Shown here in pieces: positions 11,782 to 34,797 of a stretch of DNA of 64,000 nucleotides. Made by a program: the position numbers and the translations under genes. The notes under the pieces were generated by a model that had not been told where the DNA came from, made no database searches, and was given only the letters and a program-made list of their open reading frames with translations. Each line of letters starts with the position of its first letter. Positions within the stretch are counted from its first letter, which is position 1. Source of the DNA: Cellulosimicrobium protaetiae (lineage in GTDB: Bacteria; Actinomycetota; Actinomycetes; Actinomycetales; Cellulomonadaceae); contig NZ_CP052757.1 of assembly GCF_009708005.2 (NCBI RefSeq), forward strand, positions 3,286,001 to 3,350,000. The letters run 5' to 3'.

Positions 11782-12050
11782 GCGAAGCCCCGGTCCCCCG
11801 AGGTAGAACCCTGGTTGCGCGGGGTAGAACCGTGGTCGCGCGAAGTAGAACCGTGGTTCTTGTGCCCGACGGCGCGTGGTCGCCCTGGGTGGTCGGGGTG
11901 GGTGGTGGTGCCGCGTCTACCATCCGCCGCTCGTTCCTCGCGGCTCCCGCCAGGCCCGACCACGACGCGGCACCACCACCCACCCCGCCCGGCGTCGTCT
12001 CACCCGGGTCGGTGCTCACCCCGGGCGACCGCCCGCGGGGAGGGGTTCCG
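11782..12050 (+). repeat. Full-length 3' repeat element, copy A (21-bp array plus 23-bp inverted repeat)
   Basis: Directly after the fadD stop lie three clear units of a 21-bp repeat, with GTAGAACC at 11803, 11824 and 11845, plus one degenerate unit from 11782. The motif TGTGCCCGACGGCG follows, then a perfect 23-bp inverted repeat (11895-11917 and 11964-11986) around a 46-nt loop, then about 55 bp conserved with copy D at 34528-34797. The orientation follows fadD transcription. Each unit contains the small dyad GAACC-NT-GGTY. No reading frame is conserved between copies A and D across the loop because of indels of 2, 2 and 1 nt. Confidence 0.85.
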
Positions 12051-12124
12051 CCCGCGCCGCGCGAGCAGCCGGGTCGCCGCACCGCCGCACCCGGAACGGG
12101 TCGCCGGTCATGACGCCGTCGCGG

Positions 12125-12180
12125 CGAGCAGGTGGTTCGGGCGCGTCCGGCGCGCCGGACGCGCCCGAACAGCCTGCTCG
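12125..12180. terminator. 56-bp cruciform-like palindrome between fadD and clpX
   Basis: A 17-bp perfect arm (12136-12152) meets its complement (12153-12169) with no loop. After a 3-nt mismatch on each side the stem continues for 8 bp (12125-12132 with 12173-12180). It is probably a bidirectional terminator for the convergent fadD and clpX transcripts, but it is far from both stops and might instead belong to the repeat region. Confidence 0.5.
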
Positions 12181-12440
12181 ACCCGCCGGGACGGCCTGGT
12201 CGGGCTCCTACCGGGCCGACGTCGACCCACCCGGCGCCTGCGGGCAGCCCGAAGGTCGTGAGCGGCGACCGACGGCCCCGGGGCGAGACGATCGCCGAGC
12301 GGCGGGGGTGGGCTCGGATGCGAAGGGGCGTCAGAGCGGCGCTCCTAGAGCCCACGGCCGACAGACCAGGGCGACGGCGCCGCAGCCCCGAGCACCGAGG
12401 CCACCCGCGCCGCGGGCCCGACCAGGCGGGCCTGCGACCT
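12181..12440. other. Non-coding stretch without recognisable content
   Basis: I see no gene with a plausible start and codon pattern, no tRNA and no clear repeat in these 260 bp. The open frames that cross it are Arg/Pro-rich composition artefacts. Confidence 0.5.
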
Positions 12441-12444
12441 GATC

Positions 12445-12474
12445 CGCGGTTCTCTCGGCCGACCGGGGTTCTAC
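12445..12474 (-). repeat. Array-only copy B of the 21-bp repeat, 3' of clpX
   Basis: On the clpX strand GTAGAACCCCGGTCGGCC (from 12474) is followed 19 nt later by AGAGAACCGCGG (from 12455), two degenerate units starting 17 nt after the clpX stop. They read in the direction of clpX and face copy A across the convergent gap. The long hairpin part is absent. Confidence 0.65.
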
Positions 12475-12490
12475 CCCGGCGGGTGGCAGG

Positions 12491-13777
12491 TCAGGCGGAC
12501 TTCTCCCGCGGGGTACGGCTGCGCGCGGTCGAGGTGCGCGGCACGATCGTGGGGTTCACGTTGTCCAGCACGACCTCCCGCGTGATCACGACCCGCTCCA
12601 CGTCATCCCGCGACGGCACGTCGAACATCACCTGCTGCAACACCTCCTCCATGATCGCCCGCAACCCCCGCGCCCCCGTCCCCCGCAACAACGCCTGCTC
12701 CGCGACCGCCTCCACCGCACCCTCGGTGAACTCCAGCTCCACCCCGTCGATCGCGAACATCCGCTGATACTGCTTCACCAACGCATTCCTGGGCTGCGTC
12801 AAGATCCGCACCAACGCCTCAGAGTCCAACGCCGACACCGACGCGATCACCGGAAGGCGCCCGATGAACTCCGGGATCAACCCGAACCGATGCAGATCCT
12901 CCGGACGCACCTGCGCGAACAGATCCTCCCCCGCACCCGTCTCGATCGGCGCACCAAAACCCACCCCACGCTTACGCGCCCGCGCCGCCACGATCTCGTC
13001 CAACCCCGCAAAAGCCCCCGCCACGATGAACAACACGTTCGACGTGTCCACCTGGATGAACTCCTGATGCGGATGCTTACGACCACCCTGCGGCGGCACC
13101 GACGCGCTCGTCCCCTCGATGATCTTCAACAACGCCTGCTGCACACCCTCACCCGACACGTCACGCGTGATCGACGGGTTCTCCGCCTTCCGAGCCACCT
13201 TGTCGATCTCGTCGATATAGATGATGCCCGTCTCAGCCTTCTTCACATCGAAGTCCGCAGCCTGCACCAGCTTCAACAAGATGTTCTCCACGTCCTCACC
13301 GACATACCCCGCCTCGGTGAGCGCCGTCGCGTCCGCGATCGCGAACGGCACGTTCAACATCCGCGCCAACGTCTGCGCCAGATACGTCTTCCCCGTACCC
13401 GTCGGACCGATCAGCAGAATGTTCGACTTCGCCAGCTCCACGAAGTCCGGGTCGTCGGGGCTCGACGGCTTGGCCTGCTCGCCCGCCTGGACGCGCTTGT
13501 AGTGGTTGTAGACGGCGACGGCCAGGGCCCGCTTCGCGGCGTCCTGGCCGATGACGTACTGCTCGAGGAACTCGAAGATCTCCTTGGGCTTGGGCAGCTC
13601 CGTGAGGCCCAGCTCCGTCGCCTCGGCGAGCTCCTCCTCGATGATCTCGTTGCACAGGTCGATGCACTCGTCGCAGATGTACACACCCGGGCCCGCGATG
13701 AGCTTCTTGACCTGCTTCTGCGACTTGCCGCAGAACGAGCACTTCAGCAGGTCGGCGCCGTCTGAGATACGAGCCAC
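12491..13777 (-). CDS. clpX: ATP-dependent Clp protease ATP-binding subunit ClpX
   Basis: A 428-residue AAA+ unfoldase that feeds substrates to the ClpP1P2 peptidase encoded just upstream. The N-terminal C4 zinc finger has CSFC (Cys13, Cys16) and CDEC (Cys35, Cys38); Walker A is GPTGTGKT at 124-131, Walker B IIYIDEID, and the RLPV-containing segment after FIGR is the family's ClpP- or substrate-facing region. The GTG at 13777 follows AAGGAG and gives the usual ClpX N-terminus. Odd feature: codons 1 to about 113 use the local style (GCC, GGC, GTC, CTC), whereas codons from about 114 to near 390 (roughly 13437 down to 12600) use TTG, GCG, GGT, CGT, CGG, TAT, CAT and TTT heavily, then the local style returns. 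This looks like replacement by homologous recombination. Confidence 0.97.
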
Positions 13778-13989
13778 TACGCGTCTCCTTGTCCCGGTGC
13801 CCAGGCCTCCTGCCGTCGGGTTCGACGGCGCGGGGCCCGGGCACGGCCGAGCGAGTCCTGCTCCCCATTCCACACCACGGGGCCCCCGTTGTCAGGTGGG
13901 CTCCCCGTACGGGGCGCAACGTGTCGCGCCGCCGCCCCCGGGCGGGGGACGGCGGCGCGGCGTGAGGTCATGCGGGTCGGGCGGTCGGA

Positions 13990-14706
13990 TCAGGGCTTGT
14001 TGATCGCGACGGCCTTGCGGCTCTCGAGGACCTGGTCGACGAGGCCGTACTCCTTCGCCTGCGCGGCGGTGAGGATCTTGTCGCGCTCGATGTCCTGGCG
14101 GACCTGCTCGACCGACTTGCCCGAGTGCAGGGCCAGCGTGTCCTCGAGCCACTCGCGCATGCGGATGAGCTCGTTCGCGTGGATCTCGATGTCCGACGCC
14201 TGCGCGTAGCCACCGCCCTCCATCGCGGGCTGGTGGATGAGCACGCGCGCGTTCGGGAGCGCGAGGCGCTTGCCCGGCTGGCCGGCGGCGAGCAGGACCG
14301 CGGCGGCGGACGCCGCCTGGCCCAGGCAGACCGTCTGGATCTGCGGCTTGATGTACTGCATCGTGTCGTAGAGCGCGGTCATCGCGGTGAACGACCCGCC
14401 CGGCGAGTTGATGTAGAGGATGACGTCACGGTCCGGGTCCTGGCTCTCGAGCACGAGGAGCTGGGCCATGACGTCGTCGGCGGACGCGTCGTCGACCTGG
14501 ACGCCCAGGAAGATGATGCGGTCCTCGAACAGCTTGGTGTAAGGGTCCTGCCGCTTGAAGCCGTACGCGGTGCGCTCCTCGAACTGCGGGAGCACGTAGC
14601 GGGCCGACGGCGCGCCGCCCGGCAGGGCGACGCCGCCGGGACGCGCGCCCGCGCCGGCGAGGCGCTGCGCGGTGGACAGGTACTGGGACTCGGCGCTGAA
14701 GCTCAC
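13990..14706 (-). CDS. clpP2: ATP-dependent Clp protease proteolytic subunit ClpP2
   Basis: A 238-residue serine peptidase subunit. The catalytic triad is Ser133 (GQAASAAA), His158 (ARVLIHQP) and Asp209 (IERDKIL), with the [11 protein letters not shown] oxyanion-region motif at about 96-106. In actinobacteria ClpP2 forms a mixed tetradecamer with ClpP1, and ClpP2 is the ring that docks ClpX. The N-terminal 35 residues are Gly/Ala-rich and are probably processed, as is usual for ClpP propeptides. It lies 37 nt downstream of clpP1 in the same operon and 212 nt upstream of clpX, which has its own ribosome site and may have its own promoter. Confidence 0.95.
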
Positions 14707-14743
14707 GGGTTCTCCTCGGTGAAGTCTGGTGTCCGGTGCGGGG

Positions 14744-15385
14744 TCAGGAACCCGTGGTGCCGCCGCCGCCGGTCACGGACGACGCGTTGGTGACGACGTG
14801 GTCGATGAAGCCGTACTCCAGCGCCTCCTCGGCCGTGAACCAGCTGTCGCGGTCGTTGTCCTTGAGGATCTGCTCGAGCGGCTTGCCGGTCTGCTCGGCC
14901 GTGAGCTCGGAGAGCACCTGCTTCATGTGCATGATGAGCTGCGCGTTGATGCGCACGTCGGTCGCCGTGCCGCCGATGCCGCCCGAGGGCTGGTGCATCA
15001 TGACGCGCGCGTGGGGCGTCGCGTACCGCTTGCCCTTGGTGCCGGACGAGAGCAGGAACTGCCCCATCGACGCCGCCATGCCCATGGCGATCGTCGCGAC
15101 GTCCGGCTGGATGTACTGCATCGTGTCGTAGATCGCCATCCCGGCCGTGATCGACCCGCCGGGCGAGTTGATGTAGAGCCAGATGTCCTTCTCCGGGTCC
15201 TCCGCGGCGAGCAGCATCATCTGCGCGCAGATGGCGTTCGCGTTCTCGTCGCGCACCTCCGAGCCGAGCCAGATGATGCGCTCCTTGAGGAGCCGGTTGT
15301 AGATGGAGTCGTTGAGTCCGAAGCCCGGACCCTCGGCGCGGTTGACCGGGGCCGTCGCGTCGGACGGCAGGTACAGCTCGTTCAC
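14744..15385 (-). CDS. clpP1: ATP-dependent Clp protease proteolytic subunit ClpP1
   Basis: The first peptidase gene of the operon (213 residues from the chosen start). The triad is Ser106 (MGMAASMGQ), His131 (HARVMMHQP) and Asp180 (NDRDSWF), with the [13 protein letters not shown] motif near residue 70. It pairs with ClpP2 to form the active heteromeric protease. Start choice: the Shine-Dalgarno AAGGAG abuts an ATG at 15391 with no spacing, but stands 6 nt from an in-frame GTG at 15385. I therefore prefer the GTG; the ATG would add only two residues. A candidate ClgR operator lies about 140 nt upstream, which would link expression to the Clp stress regulon. Confidence 0.94.
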
Positions 15386-15520
15386 TTCCATCTCCTTCGT
15401 CGCTCCCGCGGGTCGACCCCGCCTGCGCTGCCCTGGCCGGGACCGGGAGGGTGCCCCGTCCAGCCGTGCTGCAGTGACCCTAACGCGGTCCGTGCCCGGC
15501 GTTCGTCCCGATAGCGCGCG

Positions 15521-15538
15521 TTTTCGCTGACGGCGCAC
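15521..15538. promoter_or_regulatory. Candidate ClgR operator upstream of clpP1-clpP2
   Basis: TTTTCGCTGACGGCGCAC contains CGCTGACGGCG (15525-15535), which fits the core CGCYNANRGCG of the corynebacterial ClgR site as I recall it; only one flanking position differs. It lies between tig and clpP1, the usual place of ClgR control of clpP operons. A TAGGGT that could serve as -10 lies about 45 nt closer to clpP1 (15477-15482, minus strand). Confidence 0.5.
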
Positions 15539-15574
15539 CAGGCGGCCGGCGCGCCCCGTGACAGCGCGGGCACG

Positions 15575-15615
15575 ACGACGGCCCGCCCCCTCGTGCGGAG
15601 GGTGCGGGCCGTCGT
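15575..15615 (-). terminator. Terminator hairpin after tig
   Basis: A 12-bp stem (15575-15586 with 15604-15615) carries an inner CCC/GGG pairing in the loop. It lies 34 nt beyond the tig stop and separates tig from clpP1. Confidence 0.65.
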
Positions 15616-15648
15616 GGGGCCTGCTCCGGCGGGACGGCCGGTGCCGTG

Positions 15649-17058
15649 TCAGGCCTTCGTCGCGTCCTTCTCGTCGTCCTCGACCGGCGCCTCGGCGGCG
15701 ACGGTGGCCGAGTCGTCGACGAGCGCCTCCTCGACGGGCTCGGCCGCGACGTCCTCGACCGACTCGTCCGCGGCGGCGTCCTCGTCGTCCGAGCCGATGA
15801 ACTCGGTCAGGTCGACGACGTTGCCGTCGGAGTCCTTGACCTCGATCTGGCGCAGCGCGACCGCGAGCGACTTGGAGCGCGCGACCTCGCCGACCATCGC
15901 GGGGATCTGCCCGCCCTGGTCGAGCGACTGGATGAACTGGTTCGGGTCCATCCCGTACTGGCGCGAGGCGCTCACGAGGTACTCGAGGAGCTCGTTCTGC
16001 GCGACCTTGATCTCGAGCTGCTCGGCGAGGGTGTCGAGCAGGATCTGGTTGCGGATCGCGTCGGTCGCCTCGACGGTGACCTCGGCGCGGTGCGTCTCGT
16101 CCTCCAGACGGCCCTCGGACTCGAGGTGGCGGTGCACCTCGGCCTCGACGACGCCCGACGGCACGGGGATCTCGACGGCGTCGTTGAGCGCCTTGAGGAG
16201 CTCGTCGCGCGCGGCCACGGCCTGGTTCGAGGTCTTGATGCTCGCGACCTGCTCGCGCAGGTCGGCGTTGAGCTCCTCGAGCGTGTCGAACTCGGACGCC
16301 AGCTGGGCGAAGTCGTCGTCCGCCTCGGGCAGGTCGCGCTGCTTGACGGAGGTGGCCGTGACGGTGACGGACGCCTCCTGGCCCTCGTGCTCGCCGCCGG
16401 CCAGCGGGGCGTTGAACGTCGTGGTCTCGTCGGCCGAGAGGCCGGTGAGCGCCTCGTCGAGGCCCTCGAGCATGTTGCCCGAGCCGATCTGGTAGCTGAC
16501 GCCGGAGACGGAGTCGACCTCCTCGCCGTCGATCTCGGCCGTGAGGTCGAGCACGACGAAGTCGCCCTCGGCCGCGGGACGGTCGACGCCGACGAGGGTG
16601 CCGAAGCGCTCGCGGAGCGCGTCGAGGCGCTCGGTGACGTCCTCGTCGGTGACCTCGGCCGGCTCGACCGTGATGGCGAGCGAGTCGAGGGCGGGCAGCG
16701 TGATCTCGGGGCGGACCTCGACCTCGGCGGTGAAGACCAGCTGGCCCTCGCCGGCCTTGGCCGGGATCTCGGTGACCTCGACCTCGGGCTGGCCGAGCGG
16801 GCGCAGGCTCTCCTCGCTCGCGGCCTGGCGGTAGAAGCCCGAGAGGCCGTCGTTGACGGCGTGCTCGATGACGGCGCCCCAGCCGACGCGCTGGTCGATC
16901 ACGCGCGGCGGGACCTTGCCCTTGCGGAAGCCGGGGATGTTCACCTGCTCCGCGATGTGCTTGTAGGCGTGCTCGATGCTCGGCTTGAGCTCGTCGTACT
17001 CCACCTCGACGGTCAGCTTGACCTTGGTGGGGTCCAGGGTCTCGACGGCGCTCTTCAC
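15649..17058 (-). CDS. tig: Trigger factor (ribosome-associated chaperone and prolyl isomerase)
   Basis: A 469-residue three-domain chaperone that binds the ribosome exit tunnel. The N-terminal ribosome-binding signature is the GFRKGKVPP segment (about residues 42-50); the FKBP-type isomerase domain begins near residue 155 ([17 protein letters not shown]); the C-terminal helical chaperone domain follows; and the last 50 residues are a very acidic Ala/Glu/Asp tail. I chose the GTG at 17058 because [19 protein letters not shown] is the usual actinobacterial N-terminus and GGAG lies 9 nt upstream; a TTG 15 nt upstream has no better support. The gene precedes clpP1-clpP2-clpX in the same direction, a classic synteny, and ends in its own hairpin. 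Confidence 0.95.
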
Positions 17059-17167
17059 TTCGATGATCTCCAACTGATCGGGGCGGGCCGGCGTGCGGCC
17101 GGGGACGGCTCCGCACGCAGACGTACGGGCAACCGTCCTATCGTACGCGAGCGGTCAAGCGCCGCGA

Positions 17168-18121
17168 TCAGGCCGACGTGCGCGCACCCGGGCGCTGGAC
17201 CACCAGCAGGACCGCGATCCCGACGACCGCCGTCGCGACGACGGTCTGCCACCGCAGCCCGACCACTCCGAGGACGTCGAGCAGGACGGCCATGACCATC
17301 TGGCCGCCGACGACCGTGATCGTGAGGACGAACGTGCCGAGGTGGCGCACCGCGAACGCGGCCGCCACGGTGATGAGCGTCCCGAGCGGGCCGCCCAGGT
17401 AGAGCCACCACTGCCCGGGGAGCGTGACGCCGTCGAGCCCGCCGAGGGCCGCGACGAGCGCGCAGACGACGGAGATGCCGACGAGCCCGCCCGTGACAGA
17501 GGTGAGGGTCGCGACGACCGGGTCGCCCGTGAGCTGTGTGACCCGGCCGTTCCCGGCCTGCTGCCCGCACAGGACGGCGCCGCCGACGAACAGCGCGACC
17601 CCGGCGAGGACGGCGCCCCACCCCGCGTCGGTCGTCGCGCCACCGAGCACCGCGACGCCCAGGCCGACGAGCGCCGCGAGGCCCGCGGCGGCCCGGCGCG
17701 GCGTGAGCCGCAGCGGGGCGGAGAGCCCGACGCCCCGCGCGTCGAGCGCGAGGCCCGCGACCGTCTGGCCCGCGACCGAGCACACGGACGCGACCGCGAC
17801 GCCGACGAGCGGGACCCCGGCGGCCATGGCGACGACGATCGGGACGCTGCACAGCCCGACCGCGAACCACCACCAGGACGCCGAGGTGCGCACGACGTCG
17901 AGCGTGGACCGGGTACGCCGAAGGGCGACCACCACGAGCACGGTCGCGAGGAGTGTCCCGACGTAGGAGAGCCAGGCGGCGACCACAGGCCCCGTCCCCG
18001 CGGCGGCGAGGTCGCCGTTGAGGCGGCCCTGGAGCGACAGCACGGCGCCGCTGCCCGCGGCGACGAGCGCCGCGAGGGTGACGCGGGTCGCCGGGCCGGA
18101 CGCGGGTGCGGACGGGGTCAC
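17168..18121 (-). CDS. DMT-superfamily transporter, DUF606 (YdcZ) tandem type
   Basis: A 317-residue membrane protein with about ten hydrophobic helices and almost no soluble part. It consists of two homologous halves of about 150 residues, each beginning with a short helix and LQGRLNG-like or QQAGNGR-like signature (first near residue 30, second near 185), the pattern of tandem DUF606/YdcZ proteins in the drug/metabolite transporter superfamily. Family members are predicted small-molecule permeases; the substrate is unknown. The GTG at 18121 is preceded by GAGAGG at suitable distance. It lies downstream of a tRNA-Pro gene on the same strand and is convergent with nothing; tig follows it in the same direction across a gap of about 110 nt that holds the tig promoter. 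Confidence 0.8.
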   Translation of the reverse strand: MTPSAPASGPATRVTLAALVAAGSGAVLSLQGRLNGDLAAAGTGPVVAAWLSYVGTLLATVLVVVALRRTRSTLDVVRTSASWWWFAVGLCSVPIVVAMAAGVPLVGVAVASVCSVAGQTVAGLALDARGVGLSAPLRLTPRRAAAGLAALVGLGVAVLGGATTDAGWGAVLAGVALFVGGAVLCGQQAGNGRVTQLTGDPVVATLTSVTGGLVGISVVCALVAALGGLDGVTLPGQWWLYLGGPLGTLITVAAAFAVRHLGTFVLTITVVGGQMVMAVLLDVLGVVGLRWQTVVATAVVGIAVLLVVQRPGARTSA

Positions 18122-18204
18122 GGGTGCCTCTCGGGGACGAGGCCGACGAGACGGCCCGGACGTCGACGACGCCCTGCGACGCCCCCGGAGGGGCGCCGCG
18201 CGAA

Positions 18205-18280
<76 letters not shown>

Positions 18281-18494
18281 TCGCCCGCCGCGGCGGCGGG
18301 CCAGGGCAAGTGTACTGGCGGGCGGGAGCGCCCTCGTCGGGCCACCGGAGCACCACCCGTGCGGCGACGGCTCGCCGGTGGCAGGCAGGCGACGCGAACG
18401 GTCACCGACGTTTGCTAAGGTTGCGGCCGCAGGTCGGCGCCGCGCCGGTCCTCGGCCCTGGCCGGGGAGCCCGGATCCCGGTCCCACGGCCCAC

Positions 18495-18565
18495 GCGGGC
18501 GTAGCTCAATGGTAGAGCCCCAGTCTTCCAAACTGGCTACGCGGGTTCGATTCCCGTCGCCCGCT
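18495..18565 (+). tRNA. tRNA-Gly (UCC)
   Basis: The 71-nt cloverleaf has acceptor stem GCGGGCG/CGCCCGC, anticodon loop CTTCCAA (anticodon TCC) and T-loop GTTCGATTC. CCA is not encoded. It is followed by a strong terminator hairpin at 18611. Confidence 0.95.
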
Positions 18566-18610
18566 CCGATCTCTTCGCCGAGCACCGTCCTGGACGCCGC
18601 TCTCGAACCT

Positions 18611-18651
18611 GACGAAGGGCGTCCCGCCGAGGCGGCGGGACGCCCTTCGTC
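18611..18651 (+). terminator. Terminator of the tRNA-Gly transcript
   Basis: A perfect 18-bp stem (18611-18628 with 18634-18651) has a GAGGC loop and lies 45 nt after the tRNA. It isolates the tRNA from the cysK leader. Confidence 0.75.
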
Positions 18652-18729
18652 GTCTCGCCGCACGCCCCGTCCCTCCGCCCGCCCGGGTGCCGACGGCCCA
18701 CCTGCCGGACGACCGTCTCGTGGACGGCG

Positions 18730-18759
18730 TTGCAGGGTCCGGACGCGGACCGATAGCCT
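18730..18759 (+). promoter_or_regulatory. Promoter of the cysK-cysE leader transcript
   Basis: TTGCAG (18730-18735), an 18-nt spacer and TAGCCT (18754-18759) fit a sigma-A promoter. Transcription would start near 18766, giving a leader of about 345 nt before cysK that contains the cysteine-rich small ORF. Confidence 0.5.
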
Positions 18760-18828
18760 CGGGTCACACGCGCCGCGCCGCCCGGACCGCCGGGCTCCCG
18801 CGGCGCGACCGACCAGGAGGAGCGAGGA

Positions 18829-18912
18829 ATGACCGCGACGATCGCGCGTCCCGCATCGCTGCACGGCGCCGTCTCGCGCCTCTCCTGTTGTCGCTGTCTC
18901 GGCTGTCGCTGA
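18829..18912 (+). CDS. Cysteine-rich leader peptide (candidate attenuator of cysK-cysE)
   Basis: A 27-codon ORF starting ATG at 18829 behind AGGAGG encodes a peptide that ends [10 protein letters not shown]. Four of its last eight residues are Cys and all four codons are TGT, although TGC would be expected at this GC content. Short peptides with C-terminal Cys clusters upstream of sulfur-assimilation genes are known attenuators in mycobacteria and other actinobacteria: ribosome stalling at Cys codons when cysteinyl-tRNA is scarce changes downstream RNA folding. Here 199 nt separate the ORF from cysK, including a small CGGCTC/GAGCCG hairpin (19077-19093) just before the cysK ribosome site. The peptide itself probably has no other role. 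The function is inferred from position and composition. Confidence 0.7.
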
Positions 18913-19111
18913 CCACCCGCCGCCGCCCCCGAGCGCATCCGCGCCGCCCCAGGCCGCACCGTCCGCACGAGCCCGCACCCGCCGTCGCGCCCGCGCGCCC
19001 GCACCGCTCCCGCGAGACGCTGAGCACCGTGGCCACGGACCCGACGGCCCTCATCCCCTGAGCGGTACCCCCACCCCGGCTCACCCCGAGCCGTCGACAG
19101 AAGAGGAAGTC

Positions 19112-20047
19112 ATGGCACGCATCTACGACGACGTCACGAAGCTCGTCGGCAACACCCCCCTCGTCCGACTCAACAAGCTCACCGAGGGCCTCGGCGCGAC
19201 GGTCGTCGGCAAGCTCGAGTTCTACAACCCGGCGAACTCCGTCAAGGACCGCATCGGGGTCGCGATCATCGACGCCGCCGAGGCCTCGGGCGACCTCAAG
19301 CCGGGCGGGACGATCGTCGAGGCGACGTCCGGCAACACCGGGATCGCGCTCGCGATGGTCGGCGCGGCGCGCGGCTACGACGTCGTGCTGACGATGCCGG
19401 AGACGATGTCGAAGGAGCGCCGTGCGCTGCTGCGGGCGTTCGGCGCAGAGCTCATCCTCACCCCGGGCTCGGAGGGCATGAAGGGCGCGGTCAACAAGGC
19501 CGACGAGGTGGTCGCCGAGCGCGAGGGCGCGATCCTCGCGCGCCAGTTCGCCAACGAGGCGAACCCCGAGATCCACCGGCGCACGACGGCCGAGGAGATC
19601 TGGGCGGACACCGACGGCGCGGTCGACATCGTGGTCGCGGGCATCGGCACGGGCGGCACGATCACGGGCGTCGGGCAGGTGCTCAAGGAGCGCAAGCCGG
19701 GCGTGCAGGTCGTGGCGGTCGAGCCGGAGGAGTCGGCGATCCTCAACGGCGGCCAGCCCGGCCCGCACAAGATCCAGGGCATCGGCGCGAACTTCGTGCC
19801 CGAGATCCTCGACACCTCGGTCTACGACGAGGTCATCGACGTCAACGCCGAGACCGCCGTCGAGTACGCGCGCCGCGCCGCGAAGGAGGAGGGCCTGCTG
19901 GTCGGCATCTCGTCCGGCGCCGCGATCGCCGCCGCGCTCCAGCTCGCCGCGCGCCCCGAGAACGCGGGCAAGCTCATCGTGACGATCATCCCGTCGTTCG
20001 GCGAGCGCTACCTGTCCTCCGTGCTCTACGCCGACCTGCTGGACTGA
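19112..20047 (+). CDS. cysK: Cysteine synthase A (O-acetylserine sulfhydrylase)
   Basis: A 311-residue PLP enzyme that makes cysteine from O-acetylserine and sulfide in the cytosol. The PLP lysine is in [11 protein letters not shown] (about residues 38-48), the substrate loop TSGNTGI is near residue 72, the phosphate-binding [10 protein letters not shown] near residue 180, and the ISSGAA motif near residue 267. The length and motifs are typical of CysK/OASS-A rather than cystathionine beta-synthase. ATG 19112 follows GAGGAAG. The gene is preceded by a long leader with a Cys-rich peptide and is followed after 1 nt by the serine acetyltransferase gene, so both steps of cysteine synthesis are made from one mRNA. 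Confidence 0.96.
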
Positions 20048-20048
20048 C

Positions 20049-20678: not shown

Positions 20679-20686
20679 GCACGGAC

Positions 20687-20720
20687 GAAGGGCCGCCGTC
20701 GGGCACGACGGCGGCCCTTC
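20687..20720 (+). terminator. Intrinsic terminator of cysK-cysE
   Basis: A perfect 14-bp stem (20687-20700 with 20707-20720) with a 6-nt loop is followed by a T-rich stretch (TCTCCTCGTTCTTGTTC), a conventional intrinsic terminator. Confidence 0.8.
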
Positions 20721-20731
20721 TCTCCTCGTTC

Positions 20732-20761
20732 TTGTTCTAGTTACGCTAGAACAACTAGACT
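20732..20761 (+). promoter_or_regulatory. GntR-type operator overlapping a leaderless promoter
   Basis: TTGTTCTAG-TTACG-CTAGAACAA (20732-20754) is a perfect 9-bp dyad. Its first half contains the -35-like TTGTTC (20732-20737); after 18 nt comes TAGACT (20756-20761), and 6 nt later the GTG of the GntR gene. Binding of a dimer would cover the -35 and spacer, so autorepression is the obvious model. YtrA-subfamily regulators commonly control their own operon. Confidence 0.65.
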
Positions 20762-20767
20762 GGGGTC

Positions 20768-25314: not shown

Positions 25315-25342
25315 GCCACGCGGCGCACCGGTCGGAGCGCCG

Positions 25343-26386: not shown

Positions 26387-26387
26387 G

Positions 26388-26849: not shown

Positions 26850-26909
26850 GGGCCCATCATGCCCCAGCGGCACACCTGGACGTCGGGGGGAGGCCGTAGC
26901 CTGAGACGC

Positions 26910-28964
26910 ATGACACAGACCTCCCCGACGTCCACGCCGGCGTCCCCGTCCGGCACGACCGACCGGGCGCGCTCCGGCATCGACCTCGACGCGCTGGACC
27001 CCGCCGTCCGGCCGCAGGACGACCTCTACCGCCACGTCAACGGGCGCTGGCTCGCGACGCACGAGATCCCCGCGGACCGCGCCATGGACGGCGCGTTCCG
27101 CGCGCTGCACGACCAGGCCGAGCTGCACGTGCGCGAGATCATCACGGACCTCGGCGAGCAGGTGGCCTCGGGGGCCACGGACGTCGGGGCGGACGCCGCG
27201 AAGGTCGGCGCGCTCTACGCGAGCTTCATGGACACCGGCCGGATCGAGGCGCTCGGCACGTCGCCGCTGCAGACCGACCTCGCGCTGGTCGCGTCGGCGA
27301 CGACGCAGGCGGAGCTCACCGGGGTGCTCGGTGCGCTGCAGCGCACGGGTGGCGCGGGTGCGGTCGGCTTCTGGGTCGACAACGACGCGAAGGACCCCGA
27401 GCGCTACGTCGCCTACCTGTACCAGTCCGGCCTCGGGCTGCCCGACGAGGCGTACTACCGCGAGGACCAGTACGCCCCGGTGCGCGAGAAGTACGTGCCG
27501 CACGTCGCGCGCATGCTCGCGCTCGCGGGCGTCACCGCCGAGACGTGGGGCGCAGCCCCCGAGGACGCGGCCACGCGGGTCCTCGCACTCGAGACGAGGC
27601 TGGCCGCGAAGCACTGGGACGTCGTCCGCGACCGCGACGCCGACCTCACCTACAACCCTCGCACGCTCGCCGCGCTCGCCGACGAGGCGCCCGGGTTCGA
27701 CTGGCGCGCGTGGGTCCTCGCGCTCGGTGCGCCGCAGGGCTCGCTGGACGACGTCGTCGTGCGCGAGCCGGACTTCGCGGCCGGCTTCGCCGAGCTGTGG
27801 GCGAGCGAGCCGCTCGAGGACTGGAAGCTGTGGATGGTGTACCACCTGGTCACCGCCCGCGCGCCGTACCTCACCGACGAGATCGTCGAAGCCAACTTCG
27901 ACTTCTACGGGCGCACGCTGTCGGGCGCCCAGGAGGTGCGCGAGCGCTGGAAGCGCGGCGTCTCCGTCGTCGAGGGCGCGCTCGGCGAGGCCGTGGGCGC
28001 GCAGTACGTGGCCCGGCACTTCCCGCCCGCGCACAAGGCGCGCATGGAGGAGCTCGTCGCCTACCTCGTGGAGGCGTACCGCGAGTCGATCACGACGCTC
28101 GACTGGATGACGGAGGAGACGAAGGAGAAGGCGCTCGCCAAGCTCGAGGCGTTCACTCCCAAGATCGGCTACCCGGTGAGGTGGCGCGACTACTCCGCGC
28201 TCGTCGTCGAGGCCGACGACCTCGTCGGCAACGTGCGCCGCGCCCACGCGTTCGAGCAGGACCGCGAGCTCGGCAAGATCGGCAAGCCGCTCGACCGCGA
28301 CGAGTGGTTCATGACGCCGCAGACCGTGAACGCGTACTACAACCCGGGCATGAACGAGATCGTCTTCCCCGCGGCGATCCTCCAGCCACCGTTCTTCGAC
28401 CCCGAGGCCGACGACGCCGTCAACTACGGCGGCATCGGCGCGGTCATCGGCCACGAGATCGGGCACGGGTTCGACGACCAGGGCTCCAAGTACGACGGCG
28501 CGGGCCGCCTCGAGGACTGGTGGACGACGACCGACCGCGAGGAGTTCGAGAAGCGCACCACGGCGCTCATCGCCCAGTACGACGCGTTCCGCCCCGCCCA
28601 GCTCGGCGAGGACGGGCCGCACGTCAACGGTGCGCTGACGATCGGCGAGAACATCGGCGACCTCGGCGGCCTGTCGATCGCGCTCAAGGCCTACCGGATC
28701 GCGCTCGGCCGACCGCTCGACGAGGCGCCCGTCGTCGACGGGCTCACGGGCATCGAGCGCGTGTTCCTCGGCTGGGCGCAGGTGTGGCAGTCCAAGGGCC
28801 GTGACGAGGAGGTCGTGCGCCGGATCGCGACCGACCCGCACTCCCCCAACGAGTTCCGCTGCAACGGCGTCGTGCGCAACGTCGACGAGTTCTACGCGGC
28901 GTACGACGTGCAGCCGGGCGACGCGCTGTACCTGGCGCCCGAGGAGCGCGTGCGCATCTGGTGA
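26910..28964 (+). CDS. M13-family (neprilysin/PepO-type) zinc metallopeptidase
   Basis: A 684-residue endopeptidase of family M13. The zinc site is VIGHEIGHGFDD (HEIGH, about residues 516-520) with the third ligand in ENIGDLGGLS (about residues 575-584); the substrate-binding motif NAYYNP is near residue 475 and the N-terminal domain starts DDLYRHVNGRWL. There is no signal peptide or N-terminal anchor, unlike eukaryotic neprilysin, so it is probably cytosolic like bacterial PepO. Family members cleave peptides of roughly 5-40 residues. The ATG at 26910 has TAGCCT 7 nt upstream (26897-26902) and no ribosome site, indicating a leaderless mRNA. The transcript ends in a 20-bp hairpin just after the stop. 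Confidence 0.93.
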   Translation: MTQTSPTSTPASPSGTTDRARSGIDLDALDPAVRPQDDLYRHVNGRWLATHEIPADRAMDGAFRALHDQAELHVREIITDLGEQVASGATDVGADAAKVGALYASFMDTGRIEALGTSPLQTDLALVASATTQAELTGVLGALQRTGGAGAVGFWVDNDAKDPERYVAYLYQSGLGLPDEAYYREDQYAPVREKYVPHVARMLALAGVTAETWGAAPEDAATRVLALETRLAAKHWDVVRDRDADLTYNPRTLAALADEAPGFDWRAWVLALGAPQGSLDDVVVREPDFAAGFAELWASEPLEDWKLWMVYHLVTARAPYLTDEIVEANFDFYGRTLSGAQEVRERWKRGVSVVEGALGEAVGAQYVARHFPPAHKARMEELVAYLVEAYRESITTLDWMTEETKEKALAKLEAFTPKIGYPVRWRDYSALVVEADDLVGNVRRAHAFEQDRELGKIGKPLDRDEWFMTPQTVNAYYNPGMNEIVFPAAILQPPFFDPEADDAVNYGGIGAVIGHEIGHGFDDQGSKYDGAGRLEDWWTTTDREEFEKRTTALIAQYDAFRPAQLGEDGPHVNGALTIGENIGDLGGLSIALKAYRIALGRPLDEAPVVDGLTGIERVFLGWAQVWQSKGRDEEVVRRIATDPHSPNEFRCNGVVRNVDEFYAAYDVQPGDALYLAPEERVRIW

Positions 28965-28970
28965 CGGACA

Positions 28971-29015
28971 GCACGAAGGGCCCGCGGCGGTTCTCCCGCC
29001 GCGGGCCCTTCGTGC
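28971..29015. terminator. Strong hairpin terminator after the M13 peptidase gene
   Basis: A perfect 20-bp stem (28971-28990 with 28996-29015) with loop TTCTC lies 6 nt after the stop codon, between two convergent genes, so it probably stops both transcripts. Confidence 0.8.
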
Positions 29016-29069
29016 GTCGCGGAGCGCTTCGTGCGCCGCCGAGGTCGCCGGGCGTCGCCCGGCAACGGG

Positions 29070-30263
29070 TCAGAGAGTCCGGATCCCCGCGCGGGCGATG
29101 GTGAAGCCCTTGCCCGTCGCGTCGTCCCGGCACGTCATTCCTGTCTCCGCGCTGTCGCACGTGAACGGACCGACCGTCTTGGACGTGCCGTAGTCGAGGA
29201 TCGCCGTGTCCCCCGGGGCCGCCTGGGGCTGCTCGGCCGCCGGGACGCACGGCTGCTCCACGCTGCCGTCGGCGTTCAGGACCACCTTGTAGCCGACGGT
29301 ACCGGTGCAGCCGTCGACCGGGGCCGGCTGAGCGCCGAGCTGCGCGATGACGCACGTCGCGCTGACGTCCGTCACCTCGCACGTGATGTTGCGCGACTCG
29401 GACGCGAACGTCTCCGACACCGTGGGTTCGGCCGGAGCCGGCTCCTCGGCACCCTCCGTCGCGCTCGCGGCCGGCGGCGTCGTCGCGCCTCCCGCGGGGT
29501 CGCCGTCGCCCCCGCCGCCGAGCAGCGAGATCGCGAAGACGACCGCCCCGAGGACGAGCAGGGCGTCGACGACGATGAAGGCGATCCAGCCCGGGCTCAG
29601 CCGGTCGGACCCGCGGCCACCACCGCCCGCGCCGCGCCCGTTCCCGCGGCCCGCGGGCGGACGGGACGGCGTGCCGGACCCGCCCGACGCTCCCGCTGTC
29701 TGCGGCGTCGAGGCGCCGGCCGGCGGGTGGTAGGCCGGCTGCGACCCGGGCTGGTGCGGCACGGACGACGCGTAGCCCGCCTGCGGCGCCGGCTCGAACG
29801 AGGGAGCACCCGGTGCGGTGTAGGCGCTCGTCGCCGCGTACCCGGTCGTCGCCGGGTCCGACGTCGCGTAGGCCGGGCGGCTCGCTGCGGTCCCGACCGG
29901 AGCGGCGACGCCGAAGCCGCCCTGCTCCGTCGCGTAGCGCACCCGCTGCGGGGGCACCGGTGACGGCGCGGGGACCGCGGGCTGGGCCGCCGTCGGGAGC
30001 TGCGTGATCGGCGTGGCGTGCTGGACCGTCGTGGGCTGGAACGACGACGCGACGACGGTCGGCTGACCGTCCGCGGGGGTCGCGCGGGGGGCCTGGGCGG
30101 TCGGACCGCTCGTGGGCGCGAAGGACGGCGGCGCGGCGGACGCGGCGCCGGGCACCGGGCCGGCGAACGCCTGCGTCGGCTGCGCGTCGTGCCGACCGAC
30201 CGCGGGCCCCGGCACGCCGCCGGGGGGCGGCGGCGGCGGTGGCACGGGTGCGTTCGGGGACAT
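29070..30263 (-). CDS. Single-pass membrane protein with a DUF6636-like secreted domain
   Basis: A 397-residue protein in three parts: about 225 residues of Pro/Ala/Thr/Gln-rich disordered sequence starting with a run of seven prolines; one hydrophobic helix (about 228-252, PGWIAFIVVDALLVLGAVVF) ending in Gly-rich sequence; and a C-terminal domain of about 100 residues with six Cys. The C-terminal segment DYGTSKTVGPFTCDSAETG with following GKGFTIARAG matches the DUF6636 pattern of actinobacterial secreted proteins as I recall it. Topology is probably cytosolic proline-rich arm and extracytoplasmic Cys-rich domain with disulfides. Function unknown; similar layouts occur in substrates or partners of actinobacterial kinases. 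ATG 30263 follows GAGGAG. Confidence 0.7.
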   Translation of the reverse strand: MSPNAPVPPPPPPPGGVPGPAVGRHDAQPTQAFAGPVPGAASAAPPSFAPTSGPTAQAPRATPADGQPTVVASSFQPTTVQHATPITQLPTAAQPAVPAPSPVPPQRVRYATEQGGFGVAAPVGTAASRPAYATSDPATTGYAATSAYTAPGAPSFEPAPQAGYASSVPHQPGSQPAYHPPAGASTPQTAGASGGSGTPSRPPAGRGNGRGAGGGGRGSDRLSPGWIAFIVVDALLVLGAVVFAISLLGGGGDGDPAGGATTPPAASATEGAEEPAPAEPTVSETFASESRNITCEVTDVSATCVIAQLGAQPAPVDGCTGTVGYKVVLNADGSVEQPCVPAAEQPQAAPGDTAILDYGTSKTVGPFTCDSAETGMTCRDDATGKGFTIARAGIRTL

Positions 30264-30428
30264 TCGGCTCCTCGCGGGCTCCTCGACGGACTCGCCCGGC
30301 ACGACCGGGCGGCGGGCGCTCCTGACACCGCCCGCAACCTGACGAAGCATGGCACGAGGCACCCGTGCGGGTCGAACCCCGCCGACGGCCGGACCGTCCC
30401 GCCGGCGGGGTGCCGGGCCGGGACCGCG

Positions 30429-31073
30429 TCAGTCGAAGACCGGCCCCTGCGTACGCGTGCGCTTGATCTCGAAGAACCCGGGGGTGCTCGCGACGAGGAC
30501 GCACCCGTCCCACAGCCGACCAGCGGCTTCGCCCTTCGGGGCGGGCGTCACGACGGGCCCGAAGAAGGCCGTGCCGCCGAACGCGACGACCGGCGTGCCG
30601 ACGTCCTCGCCGACGCGCCCGATCCCCTCGGCGTGCGACGCGCGCAGCTGCTCGTCGTACGCGTCGGAGCCCGCCGCCTCGGCGAGCGACGCCGGCAGGC
30701 CCACCTCCGCGAGCGCCTCGCGCAGCACCGCGTCGTAGTCCGTGCGGCCGCCCGGGTGCAGGCGCGTCCCGATCGCGTCGTAGAGCGGCTTGACGACCTC
30801 CTCGCCGTGCTCGACGCGCGCGGCGGTGACCACGCGCACCGGACCCCAGGCCTTCTCCATGAGCTCGCGGTACTCCTCCGGCAGGTCCCGGCCCTCGTTG
30901 AGCACGGCGAGGCTCATGACGTGCCAGCGGACGGTGACGTCGCGCACCTGCTCGACCTCACCCATCCAGCGGCTCGTCATCCACGCCCACGGGCAGACGG
31001 GGTCGAACCAGAAGTCGGCGACGCGCACGGCGTCCTCGGTCGCGGTGGTGTCGGACGTCGCGGTGAGGGTCAC
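30429..31073 (-). CDS. DsbA-family protein, Rv2466c-like (mycothiol-dependent reductase type)
   Basis: A 214-residue thioredoxin-fold protein very similar to mycobacterial Rv2466c, a mycothiol-dependent nitroreductase that activates some nitro prodrugs. Shared stretches are [45 protein letters not shown] with following [18 protein letters not shown] and FFEIKRTRT. The active site differs: Rv2466c has CPWC, here it is CPWA, so the resolving Cys is missing and only a monothiol mechanism with mycothiol or another thiol partner is possible. No signal peptide, hence cytosolic. The GTG at 31073 is 9 nt from AAGGAG. It is divergent from pepN; two 13-bp direct repeats lie in between. Confidence 0.85.
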
Positions 31074-31194
31074 GGGACGGGTCTCCTTCGTCGTGGGCGG
31101 CGCCCGGTGGACCCGGGTCGCCAAGGTGTCAGGGCGGCGCGCGCGGACGGCCGACGCCGTCGCCCACCCAGTCTCGACACCGGGCGGCCGCAGC

Positions 31195-31220
31195 GTATTC
31201 CCGGGAGGTATTCCCGGGGG
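31195..31220. repeat. Tandem 13-bp repeat in the divergent DsbA-family/pepN promoter region
   Basis: GTATTCCCGGGAG and GTATTCCCGGGGG stand head to tail (31195-31207 and 31208-31220). Each contains the palindromic TCCCGGGA-like core. It could be an operator for one or both divergent genes; no regulator can be named. Confidence 0.4.
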
Positions 31221-31307
31221 CGGGCGCGGGCACCCGTGGGATGATCGTCCGTGGCCCACAGGCCGCCGTCGAGGCCGCCCGGCCCGACCCGAGACCGAGG
31301 AGATGCA

Positions 31308-33887
31308 GTGCCCGGAGAGAACCTCACCCGCGCCGAGGCGAGCGAGCGCGCGGCGATCGTCGACGTCCAGTCCTACGAGGTCGACCTCGACCTCACGACG
31401 GGGGCGACGACGTTCGCGTCGACGACCGTGGTGCGGTTCACCGCGACCGAGGGGGCGAGCACCTTCGTCGACCTCGTCGCCCCGACGGTGCACGAGGTCG
31501 TGCTCAACGGGCGCTCCCTCGACCCGGCGGAGGTCTTCGCGGACTCCCGCATCGCGCTCGACGGCCTGGCGGCCGAGAACGAGCTGCGCGTCGTCGCGGA
31601 CTGCGCGTACACGAACACCGGGGAGGGGCTGCACCGCTTCGTCGACCCGGTCGACGGCGAGGTCTACCTCTACACGCAGTTCGAGGTGCCGGACTCGCGG
31701 CGCGTGTTCACCGTGTTCGAGCAGCCCGACCTCAAGGCGACGTTCGCGTTCTTCGTGACCGCGCCCGCCGCGTGGCAGGTCGTGAGCAACCAGCCGACGC
31801 CGGCGCCCGAGGCGCTGGGCACGAAGGCCGACCCGACGGGCACCGGCGCGGGCGACGTCGAGGTCGCGCGGTGGGCGTTCGAGCCGACGCCGCGCATCTC
31901 CTCGTACATCACCGCGCTCGTCGCGGGCCCGTACGTCGTCGAGCGCAGCGAGCTGACGTCGTCCGACGGCCGCACGATCCCCCTCGGTGTCTTCTGCCGT
32001 GCGTCGCTCGCGGACCACATGGACGCCGACTACGTGTTCGACAAGACGCGCGAGGGCTTCACGTTCTTCGAGTCCGCATTCGAGCACCCGTACCCGTTCG
32101 ACAAGTACGACCAGCTCTTCGTGCCCGAGTACAACATGGGCGCGATGGAGAACGCCGGGTGCGTGACGTTCACCGAGACGTACGTGTTCCGCTCCAAGGT
32201 GACCGACGCGGTCAAGGAGCGTCGCGTCGTGACGATCTTGCACGAGCTCGCGCACATGTGGTTCGGCGACCTCGTCACCATGAAGTGGTGGAACGACCTC
32301 TGGCTCAACGAGTCGTTCGCCGAGTACGCCTCCACGCTCGCGACCGCCGAGGCGACCGAGTGGACCGAGGCCTGGACGACGTTCGCCGCGATGGAGAAGT
32401 CGTGGGCGTACCGCCAGGACCAGCTCCCCTCGACCCACCCGATCGTCGCGACGATCAACGACCTCGAGGACGTCTTCGTCAACTTCGACGGCATCACCTA
32501 CGCCAAGGGCGCGTCGGTGCTCAAGCAGCTCGTCGCCTGGGTCGGCAAGGAGCAGTTCCTCGCCGGCGTCGCCGCGTACTTCCGCAAGCACGCCTGGGGC
32601 AACACCGAGCTGCGCGACCTGCTCGTCGAGCTGGAGGCCACGAGCGGGCGCGACCTCACGCAGTGGTCCGCGCTGTGGCTCGAGACGGCGGGCGTCAACA
32701 CGCTGCGCCCGGAGTTCGAGCTCGACGCGCACGGGCGCTTCACGACGTTCACCGTCCTGCAGTCCGCTGCCGCCGACCACCCGACGCTGCGCCCCCACCG
32801 TCTCGGCATCGGCCTCTACGACCTCGTGGACGGAGTCCTCACGCGGGTGCACCGCGTCGAGGTCGACGTCGACGGCGCCCGCACCGAGATCCCCGAGCTC
32901 CTCGGGCTCGACCGTCCCCAGCTCGTCCTGCTCAACGACGACGACCTCGCCTACGCGAAGATCCGCCTCGACGACGCGTCGCTCCAGGTCGCCACCGAGC
33001 ACCTCGCCGACCTGGCCGACCCGCTGGCCCGCTCGCTCGTCTGGGGCTCCGCGTGGGACGCGACGCGCGACGGCGAGACCCCGGCCGGCGACTACGTCCG
33101 CCTCGTGCTCGGCAACATCGCCCGCGAGACCGAGTCGACGACGATCCGCACCACGCTCAACCAGCTCGCGCTCGCCGCGAAGTCGTACGTCTCGCCGGAG
33201 CGCAGGGACGAGACCCTCGCGCACGTCGGCGACGTGCTCTGGTCGCTCGCGCAGGACGCCGCCCCGGGCTCTGACCTGCAGTTCCAGCTCGTGAAGTTCT
33301 TCGCCCACCTCGCGTCGACGCCCGAGCACGGGACGGTGCTGCGCGCGCTGCTCGACGGCACGCGGACCCTCGACGGGCTCGAGATCGACACGGACCTGCG
33401 CTGGGAGATCCTCGAGGGCCTCGTCCTCCTCGGGCTGGCGGACGACGCCGAGATCGAGGCGACCCTCGTCGCCGACTCGACGGCGACGGGCCAGCAGTCG
33501 GCCGCCCGCGCCCGGGCGACCGTCCCGACCGCCGACGCGAAGCGCGCGGCGTTCGACCGGCTCGTCGGCTCGGAGGACGCCCCCAACGCGATCGTCCGAG
33601 CCACGACGCTCGGCTTCCAGCACGTCAACGACCCGGCCGCGCTCGCACCGCTCGTCGGCCCGTACTTCGACGCGCTGCTGCCGCTCTGGGAGGAGCGGTC
33701 GTACCACATCGCCGAGGCCCTGGTCACCGGCCTGTACCCCGCGCCGCTCGCCACCACCGAGCTGCGTGACGCCACGCAGTCCTGGCTCGACGCGAACCCC
33801 GACGCCGCGCCCGCGCTGCGCCGACTCGTCGTCGAGAACCTCGCCGGTGTCGAGCGCGCCCTCACCGCCCAGGCCGCCGACGCCTGA
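31308..33887 (+). CDS. pepN: Aminopeptidase N, M1 family
   Basis: An 859-residue cytosolic zinc aminopeptidase removing N-terminal residues from peptides. The exopeptidase signature GAMENAG is at about residue 280, the zinc-binding [24 protein letters not shown] at about 315-338 (HExxH with Glu 18 residues on), and the C-terminal half is the long helical ERAP1-like domain typical of actinobacterial PepN. The catalytic Tyr region ([10 protein letters not shown]) is near residue 395. The GTG at 31308 follows GAGGAG at 5 nt; earlier in-frame sequence looks non-coding. The gene ends with a strong hairpin, and an array of 21-bp repeats begins about 190 nt after the stop. Confidence 0.95.
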
Positions 33888-33900
33888 CCTCACCCACCAC

Positions 33901-33949
33901 CGACGAACGCCGGGCAGCTCCCACGACGGGAGCGGCCCGGCGTTCGTCG
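33901..33949 (+). terminator. Terminator hairpin after pepN
   Basis: Outer arms of 15 bp (33901-33915 with 33935-33949) enclose a second 6-bp stem GCTCCC/GGGAGC (33917-33922 with 33928-33933). The hairpin begins 13 nt after the pepN stop. Confidence 0.7.
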
Positions 33950-34076
33950 TCCGACCTGTTCACCGTGCACACCTGGCGCGACGGCGGGGGGCCGCCACCC
34001 ATCGCAGGGCACCGTACCGGGGTGGTCTCGTTCCCTGCGACGACTGGCTGCTCCCGAGTCCCCACCACTCGCCGAG
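33950..34076. other. Spacer between the pepN terminator and repeat array C
   Basis: No gene is seen. A weak 7-bp inverted repeat CGCAGGG/CCCTGCG (34004-34010 with about 34032-34038) is the only structure noted. Confidence 0.4.
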
Positions 34077-34160
34077 GTAGAACCGTGGTCGGCCGAGGGA
34101 GAACCCTGGTCCGCCGAAGTGGAACGTTGGTCGTCCGAAAGAGAACCGTGGTCTTGCACG
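34077..34160 (+). repeat. Array-only copy C of the 21-bp repeat, 3' of pepN
   Basis: Four units start at 34077, 34098, 34119 and 34140, spaced exactly 21 bp, reading in pepN direction: GTAGAACCGTGG, GGAGAACCCTGG, GTGGAACGTTGG, AGAGAACCGTGG. They are followed by TTGCACGACGGCG, matching the TGTGCCCGACGGCG that ends arrays A and D. The 23-bp inverted-repeat part is absent. Confidence 0.8.
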
Positions 34161-34527
34161 ACGGCGTTCGCTCACCCGTCGCGGTCGGGTCGTCGACGGC
34201 GGTCGACCACCAGGGCGGCCAAGAGCTCCGAGACGTCGCAGCCGGTCCGGCGCGCTCGGGGTCGGCCCGGGGACCCGGCCGTGTCACCTACGTGACCTGT
34301 CCGTGCCCGGCACCGGACCAGGGTGTGCGTGAACCGTCTGCCCGCGCGGGACGGGCCGCGCGCCTGTCCCTAGCCGAGCCCTGTGACGATACGGCTCGTC
34401 GGGCGGCCGGAGAGGGCCACGACCACATGCTCGGCGGAGCACGACGTTCGGCCCACGACGGCGACGCGCGAAGGTGCGTAACATGCGCGACCGCGACCGC
34501 GACCGCGAGACGCGAGACGCACCCCAC
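34161..34527. other. Non-coding stretch between repeat copies C and D
   Basis: No gene with convincing start and codon use. It contains a GTCAC-CTAC-GTGAC dyad (34283-34296) and a degenerate hexamer run of GCGACC/GCGAGA (34487-34520). I cannot assign a role. Confidence 0.45.
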
Positions 34528-34797
34528 CACGCGGGCAGTCGCCAGAGGCGAGCACAGACCAGGGCGAGACGACGCCGGGCGGGGTGGGTGGTGGTGCCGC
34601 GTCGTGGCGGGCCTGGCGGGAGCGACGCGAGGAACGAGCGGCGCGGATGGTAGACGCGGCACCACCACCCACCCCGACCACCCAGGGCGACCAGACCGCC
34701 GTCGGGCACAGTGACCACGGTTCTCCCTCGCGCGACCAGGGTTCTACCTCGGCCAACCAGGGTTCTACCTCGCGCGATCGGGGTTCTTCCTCGGCGG
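34528..34797 (-). repeat. Full-length 3' repeat element, copy D (21-bp array plus 23-bp inverted repeat)
   Basis: Read on the malQ strand, the element starts immediately after the malQ stop. Four 21-bp units have GTAGAACC-type cores ending at 34789, 34768, 34747 and 34726. They are followed by TGTGCCCGACGGCG, then a perfect 23-bp inverted repeat (34653-34675 with 34581-34603) around a 49-nt loop, and a conserved trailing segment. The arm sequences are identical to those of copy A; the loops differ by indels of 2, 2 and 1 nt. It faces copy C across the convergent gap. Confidence 0.85.

Follow-up and report, generated by a model that had tools for sequence, protein, structure and literature searches.

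Inward-facing arrays of a 21-bp repeat at gene 3' ends in the genome of Cellulosimicrobium protaetiae

Two large convergent gaps in the genome of Cellulosimicrobium protaetiae (G000; 4.78 Mb in two contigs), one between fadD and clpX and the other between pepN and malQ, contain arrays built on a 21-bp unit. They raise the question of what such arrays are, and of what they might do past the ends of genes. The stretch of DNA analysed here, referred to below as the window, consists of 64,000 nucleotides (positions 3286001-3350000 of contig C1). All four arrays that the original prediction had placed after these genes are real and lie where it had put them. The gene identities agree with the Pfam matches, which are, respectively for fadD, clpX, pepN and malQ, AMP-binding, ClpX zinc finger plus AAA, Peptidase_M1 and Glyco_hydro_77/MalQ_N. 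The features of the two gaps are as follows.

11782..11865 (+): fadD-side 21-bp array of one degenerate and three good units, its outer end directly past the stop codon region
11866..12000 (+): core of composite A, 3' of the fadD array; a structured hairpin with arms 11891-11917 / 11964-11990
12116..12189: palindrome of a second kind (CGAGCAGG type) in the fadD-clpX convergent gap, arms 12116-12152 / 12153-12189
12240..12445 (-): core B, adjoining the clpX array; limits approximate, set by eye
12445..12474 (-): clpX-side arm, one clear unit (12454-12474) with a degenerate neighbour
33901..33949: strong hairpin directly 3' of pepN, separate from the array; 22-nt arms, 95% complementary, 5-nt loop
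34077..34160 (+): pepN-side arm made up of four 21-bp units
34567..34705 (-): core of composite A, next to the malQ array; hairpin arms 34577-34603 / 34653-34679
~34706..34797 (-): malQ-side arm, also of four 21-bp units; it starts 8 bp from the stop codon of malQ

Exact cores are found in the fadD array at 11805, 11826 and 11847 (+), preceded by the degenerate unit. The pepN array begins 189 bp past the stop codon, beyond the hairpin at 33901-33949. With at most one mismatch the window contains 12 matches to the core where 0.95 would be expected, a number that was reached in 0 of 100 shuffles. A second ClpX-like protein, approximately 91% identical to that of the window, is encoded at a minimum of five further positions across the genus, among them G000:C1:375727-377022, where an array follows it, and L215-L218.

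The arrays are members of a genome-wide family. The G000 genome contains 311 exact copies of the core AGAACCNTGGT (167 forward, 144 reverse) and none of the reversed pattern, a number which rules out a local duplication limited to two loci; 133 pairs of cores are exactly 21 bp apart (76 + 57). The phasing predicted from the window is equally tight across the genome. Units were located by means of a weight matrix derived from 72 exact cores, and 304 of the 321 spacings between neighbouring units ≤64 bp apart in the fetched part of the genome are exactly 21 bp (a few of the 321 may be counted twice owing to the overlap of fetched stretches near 3.556-3.560 Mb). On the basis of 194 interior units, selected by the scores of their neighbours with their own scores ignored, the unit consists of some 18 conserved bases and three that are nearly free: CGA-R-GTAGAACC-S-TGGT-Y plus the three nearly free positions. 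Positions 14-16 carry 0.47-0.80 bits of information and those of AGAACC, TGGT and CGA 1.3-1.9; the same picture of conservation was obtained with 197 interior units from other Cellulosimicrobium loci. The frequencies of GTAG at the unit start are G 0.71, T 0.85, A 0.95 and G 0.97. The small GAACC-NT-GGTY dyad to which attention had first been drawn is present in the unit but matters less than the inversion of whole arms: within a single unit it is short (AACC-NT-GGT, 4-5 bp), and a long palindrome exists only where a unit meets its inverse.

As had been supposed, no known class of repeat was found to which the family corresponds. A search of the window against Rfam returned tRNAs only, with no match to the arrays, and no description of a 21-bp array family was present in the titles and partial texts returned by a literature search, in which queries with its letters gave titles of unrelated work. 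A CRISPR array was rejected, the units standing head-to-tail with three variable bases and not as repeats parted by unique spacers of tens of bases. A coding reading of the palindrome or unit was set aside on inspection by eye; one frame has a TAG in each unit and the codons would be rare.

The position of the arrays with respect to genes was analysed in approximately one-third of the genome, comprising 60 unbiased 20-kb stretches, 40 stretches picked for hits, and the window; genes were called with our own codon-model script rather than a published caller. The 77 clusters are distributed among tandem gaps (36), convergent gaps (32), divergent gaps (3), the interior of called genes (3) and the edges of stretches (3). 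The last two groups were excluded from the comparison of gap types, which is based on 71 clusters. The background was taken as the 570 gaps of ≥60 bp in the unbiased sample (87 convergent, 317 tandem and 166 divergent), though a few clusters sit in shorter gaps; against it convergent gaps are enriched in clusters (Fisher p = 3e-8) and divergent gaps depleted (p = 6e-7). In the unbiased stretches alone there are 9 convergent, 13 tandem and 2 divergent clusters. The copies are therefore not unbiased, and the preference for convergent gaps suggested by the two loci of the window extends to the genome.

Where neighbouring arrays lie on opposite strands, 43 pairs face inward and one outward, in line with the two inward-facing pairs noted in the window; same-strand neighbours number nine. 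The proposed rule that each copy has the same direction as the gene before it is correct for all of the 54 arrays in convergent gaps, but agreement in tandem gaps is only 30/62, and for this reason reading with the gene is seen to be mostly a consequence of inward pairing. Clusters in tandem gaps are closer to the upstream stop than to the downstream start in 30 of 36 cases (medians 14.5 and 97 bp). Arrays after a same-strand gene (n = 86) begin at a median of 17 bp from its stop codon, and in 19 of these 86 the TAG of the first unit is the stop codon itself. TAG terminates 32 of the 100 genes facing clusters and 119 of the 1044 genes overall, and is consequently over-used about three times. 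The arrays make up, one to each arm, extragenic inverted repeats located at the 3' ends of genes, and are not the individual gene-end signals for which they had been taken.

The distance between the arms is <60 bp in nine of the 43 inward pairs and 60-750 bp in the other 34, in which the loops often contain repeated cores. It is because the loop is so often filled by cores A and B and other repeats that most arms now lie far apart. Two near-abutting pairs were folded and each gave one long hairpin (L284, -94 kcal/mol, z -11.9; L273, -91.5 kcal/mol, z -10.9), and in a relative, G400, the 45-bp gap between malQ and pepN is one perfect hairpin (z of the folded stretch, -5.9), the palindrome taking up nearly all of it. 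All three of the near-abutting or short palindromes folded form a GC-rich stem-loop (z -5.9 to -11.9). Single arms with their neighbourhood, of which two from the window were folded, do no better than shuffled sequences (z -0.6 and -0.35). No T-rich tail was seen, a terminator-like scan giving 0 sites in the fadD-clpX gap and one weak site in the pepN-malQ gap; the palindromes of relatives were inspected by eye. The idea that the arrays replace other terminator hairpins (present at 10/54 array-bearing ends versus 100/207) was abandoned when the difference was lost under matched masking (0.185 versus a control mean of 0.117).

The explanation that we favour, and judge probable by a slight balance, is that these are two-way 3'-end hairpins, REP/BIME-like, with arms that have been extended by tandem duplication and loops that have been filled by other elements. 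It is built on the inverted geometry, the position at 3' ends, the strong folding of the short-loop forms and a short form which, as described below, is present across the family; arms made of head-to-tail series of 21-bp units occur in part of Cellulosimicrobium only. By analogy with hairpins between convergent genes elsewhere, we infer that the palindromes act as two-way transcript-end hairpins. On transcription of the gap from either direction, the arms would fold together into a hairpin at the 3' end, which may help to stop or position RNA polymerase and may protect the end of the transcript, and two convergent genes could in this manner be served by a single palindrome. Spread of the conserved unit would be by tandem duplication, by copying between sites and with some mobilising activity. 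Against this explanation count the lack of a T-rich tail, the wide separation of the arms in most pairs, outer units that do not covary in register across short hairpins, the loss under matched masking of the difference in other hairpins, and the clusters in divergent gaps or inside called genes (three of each).

Relatives were searched as samples of the taxa concerned. Among 17 genomes of the genus the number of exact cores ranges from 0 to 311, three having none. When named genomes were scanned for pairs of cores at a 21-bp spacing, 70 stretches were obtained, 67 of them in Cellulosimicrobium, and the tandem pattern is present in 1/394 sampled genomes of the class (G000 only) and in 5/81 genomes of the family, all within the genus. 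Five matches outside the genus, in the viral contigs L071 and L072 and the metagenome-assembled L086, L102 and L108 (38-61% GC), were taken from sequence and GC content alone to be chance or unrelated tandem repeats; they possess no comparable arms, except for a run of units in L108. The palindrome at its smallest consists of one hairpin, CGAGGTAG-NAC-(variable paired bases)-GTN-CTACCTCG; this form occurs at the ends of genes in several of the family's genera. The short palindrome pattern was found in 18/81 family genomes and 8/25 sampled genera (reversed control, 0); the 19 short palindromes examined in 18 fetched loci comprise 13 in convergent, 5 in tandem and 1 in divergent positions.

The malQ-pepN gap could be read in 16 of the 17 genus genomes. 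Six possess 21-bp units (G000, G457, G473, G476, G477, G482), five a short motif palindrome (G400, G470, G474, G481 [by eye] and G483) and five neither (G424, G441, G478, G479, G480), though the G441 gap retains one CCGAGGTAG and that of G424 has a core-A-like hairpin with a different stem. The position of an array site is common to species at 7/9 comparable sites in the unbiased stretches outside the window. Over all matched array sites 25/29 carry an array in G000, most of the G000 DNA there having been chosen for its arrays. At one of the sites in the unbiased stretches the G000 gap measures 73 bp and contains a short hairpin, and a contig of C. cellulans MP1 has a composite of about 850 bp between the arms. 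From this comparison of sites across species it follows that the sites are often old and that arm length and loop contents change fast.

A different account, which we consider rather unlikely, is that the arrays and cores, as non-autonomous mobile repeats of a selfish or neutral kind, have no host function and collect at 3' ends since they are harmless there. A non-autonomous mobile repeat was among the roles first suggested, and part of the evidence agrees with it: the copy number varies from 0 to 311 within one genus, and composite A (array plus core A) is present in at least 35 copies at 91-100% identity, with 5 more at 81-86% (40 candidates scored). In the consensus of 30 aligned copies the 21-bp units lie directly 5' of the core. 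Orthologues of composite A (identity 0.884-0.986 in eight comparisons from 14 locus pairs tried) are not clearly closer than paralogues (median 0.911). The use of the unit TAG as a stop codon and the excess of TAG would also be expected of elements which arose or landed in coding ends. Against this stand the seven of nine site positions common to species, an inward geometry that is almost invariant, and the persistence of the conserved 18-mer. The orthologous gaps inspected show no clean insertion with target duplication, and plasmids and phages yielded no copy of the array plus core A at the sensitivity used. Finally, no RAYT-type transposase (Y1_Tnp, PF01797) was detected in any of the 17 genus genomes, using a search which was positive in 6/14 control genomes including that of E. 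coli.

Unlikely as well, in our view, is that the arrays are phased sites for a DNA-binding protein, two helical turns apart, which mark or insulate gene 3' ends (as a roadblock or by means of a nucleoid protein, for example) and for which the inversion is secondary. About 18 conserved and three free bases at a constant spacing would suit a protein, although tandem duplication by itself also yields constant spacing. Conservation extends beyond pairing capacity to the sequence itself, both where the arms are separated by hundreds of bases and where an array has no partner. The mean match to the core is 0.946 in short hairpins, 0.857 in far-apart arms and 0.906 in unpaired arrays, differences that are not significant (p 0.18), as measured with a fixed 21-bp stepping by which indel-bearing arrays may be misregistered. 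The spacer bases do not covary across the arms, the outer units of facing arms in short hairpins giving 0.66 in register versus 0.634 (p 0.22, 21 pairs) in a set of 33 short hairpins drawn in part from other genera and in one case from the unrelated L108. On the other side, the palindrome of relatives lacks arrays and differs in the interior of its stem, a finding more in keeping with pairing than with a fixed site, and two-way hairpins remain the explanation that we prefer.

The cores between the arms merit separate description. Core A adjoins arrays in both gaps of the window (11891-11990, +; 34577-34679, -) and has a variable outer stem, an invariant CTACCATCCG, a variable inner hairpin with the loop CTCGTNCCTCG, and an invariant CTCCCGCCAG. 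In 23 variants, selected by their conserved loop, two-sided changes of pairs were recorded in 105 cells as compared to 37 with shuffling and at most 39 with slid structures; 87.8% of the cells pair, and one-sided G-T changes occur in only 5. The fetched DNA contains 27 distinct variants, and most copies examined are 3' of genes (L235, L313, L319, L320, L324 and others). The loop pattern was found in 6/198 genomes of the order, representing 4/73 genera, three of which belong to other families. A covariance model, used with rough E-values and 16 candidates scored per genome, gave matches in 10/296 genomes of the class and 7/115 genera. Among 20 matches outside G000, those of G273, G202 and G211 are clear relatives, and those in genus g80 are weaker, with mainly the GAGGAACGAG loop kept. 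One copy of core A searched against Rfam had no match even at E 1. With strongly covarying stems and no annotation, core A may be a more novel part of these loci than the arrays, and is a candidate new structured element.

Core B is a second repeated core found after arrays (approximately 12240-12445, -; also L099, L193, L195 and L199). Array-B-A-array composites of about 700-900 bp, their limits set by eye, recur at different loci and in different species. There is also a second type of palindrome at gene ends, with CGAGCAGG...CCTGCTCG arms, parallel to the CGAGGTAG type; look-alikes were noted by eye in the malQ-pepN gaps of G478 and G480 and at L164 1360-1600.

One could go further and regard phased 18-mer inward arms and core A, both past stop codons, as an actinobacterial gene-end system in which dedicated host factors would end, protect or insulate convergent transcripts, core A, which has relatives in several families of the class, being a structured nucleic-acid element of a new kind. 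On this view, given the near absence of G-T pairs among its changed pairs, core A might act as single-stranded DNA. We regard this larger proposal as decidedly doubtful. Most improbable of all is that CGAGGTAG(N)AC is a signature of the DNA-uptake type that terminators have co-opted in inverted pairs, as happens in Neisseria and Haemophilus: a conserved 8-11-mer in inverted pairs at gene 3' ends is what the accessible text of PMC1852404 describes for uptake sequences, but these number about 1,000 copies or more per genome, whereas CGAGGTAG has no genome-wide excess (244 observed versus 238 expected from 7-mers in 1.26 Mb, both strands) and is in excess only between genes, 39/58 copies of GAGGTAGNAC falling in the 134 kb called intergenic.

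If the preferred explanation is correct, Cellulosimicrobium possesses a REP-like 3'-end system in a high-GC actinobacterium without a detectable RAYT, with arms that grow by 21-bp duplication. With 0 to 311 copies within one genus, the origin and spread of such elements could be followed as in a natural experiment. Sister species differ at the same gaps, which contain no palindrome, a short one, arrays alone or arrays with inserted cores, and this allows a direct test of how each state affects convergent transcript ends. Core A, should its reading as a structured element be true, would represent a new kind of structured nucleic-acid element.

Three known systems invite comparison. In E. coli, according to the available part of PMC13082048, the place where RNA polymerases collide, and where termination occurs in both directions, is set by a hairpin located between convergent genes. 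The mechanism proposed here is analogous, one palindrome in a convergent gap giving both transcripts a hairpin, but most of the array pairs have a loop of 60-750 nt and many of the clusters are between genes of the same direction. With the uptake-sequence terminators of Neisseria and the Pasteurellaceae, as described in the accessible text of PMC1852404, the arrays have in common a conserved stem reused as inverted pairs at gene 3' ends; they differ in that the motif is not in excess across the genome, the copies are far fewer, the arms consist of tandem repeats and no T-rich tail was seen.

The closest resemblance is to REP and BIME elements. REP-like elements have been described mainly from Proteobacteria, where they are tied to RAYT transposases; they lie downstream of genes in convergent and same-direction gaps and include inverted dimers able to form one large hairpin (available text of PMC3733652). 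The available texts of PMC3733652 and PMC2817692 agree with the present arrays in copy number (>100 per genome), in an extragenic position downstream of coding regions in convergent or same-direction gaps, in inverted pairs which can be folded into one large hairpin with spacer DNA between the partners, in the formation of mosaics with other repeats, and in GTAG at the start of the unit. In those same portions of text the stem 'actinobacteri' does not occur. The Cellulosimicrobium arm, by contrast, is a head-to-tail series of 21-bp units, each with a dyad of only 4-5 bp, and its GTAG pairs with CTAC in the folded palindrome, whereas the REP tag is unpaired at the hairpin end. A RAYT-driven REP was rejected on the lack of Y1_Tnp matches in the 17 genus genomes. 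Because of this and of the paired GTAG, we do not file the arrays as GTAG REPs but describe them as REP/BIME-like in behaviour. We propose, without implying membership in either class, that the inverted arrays of Cellulosimicrobium work in the way that REP and BIME elements do.
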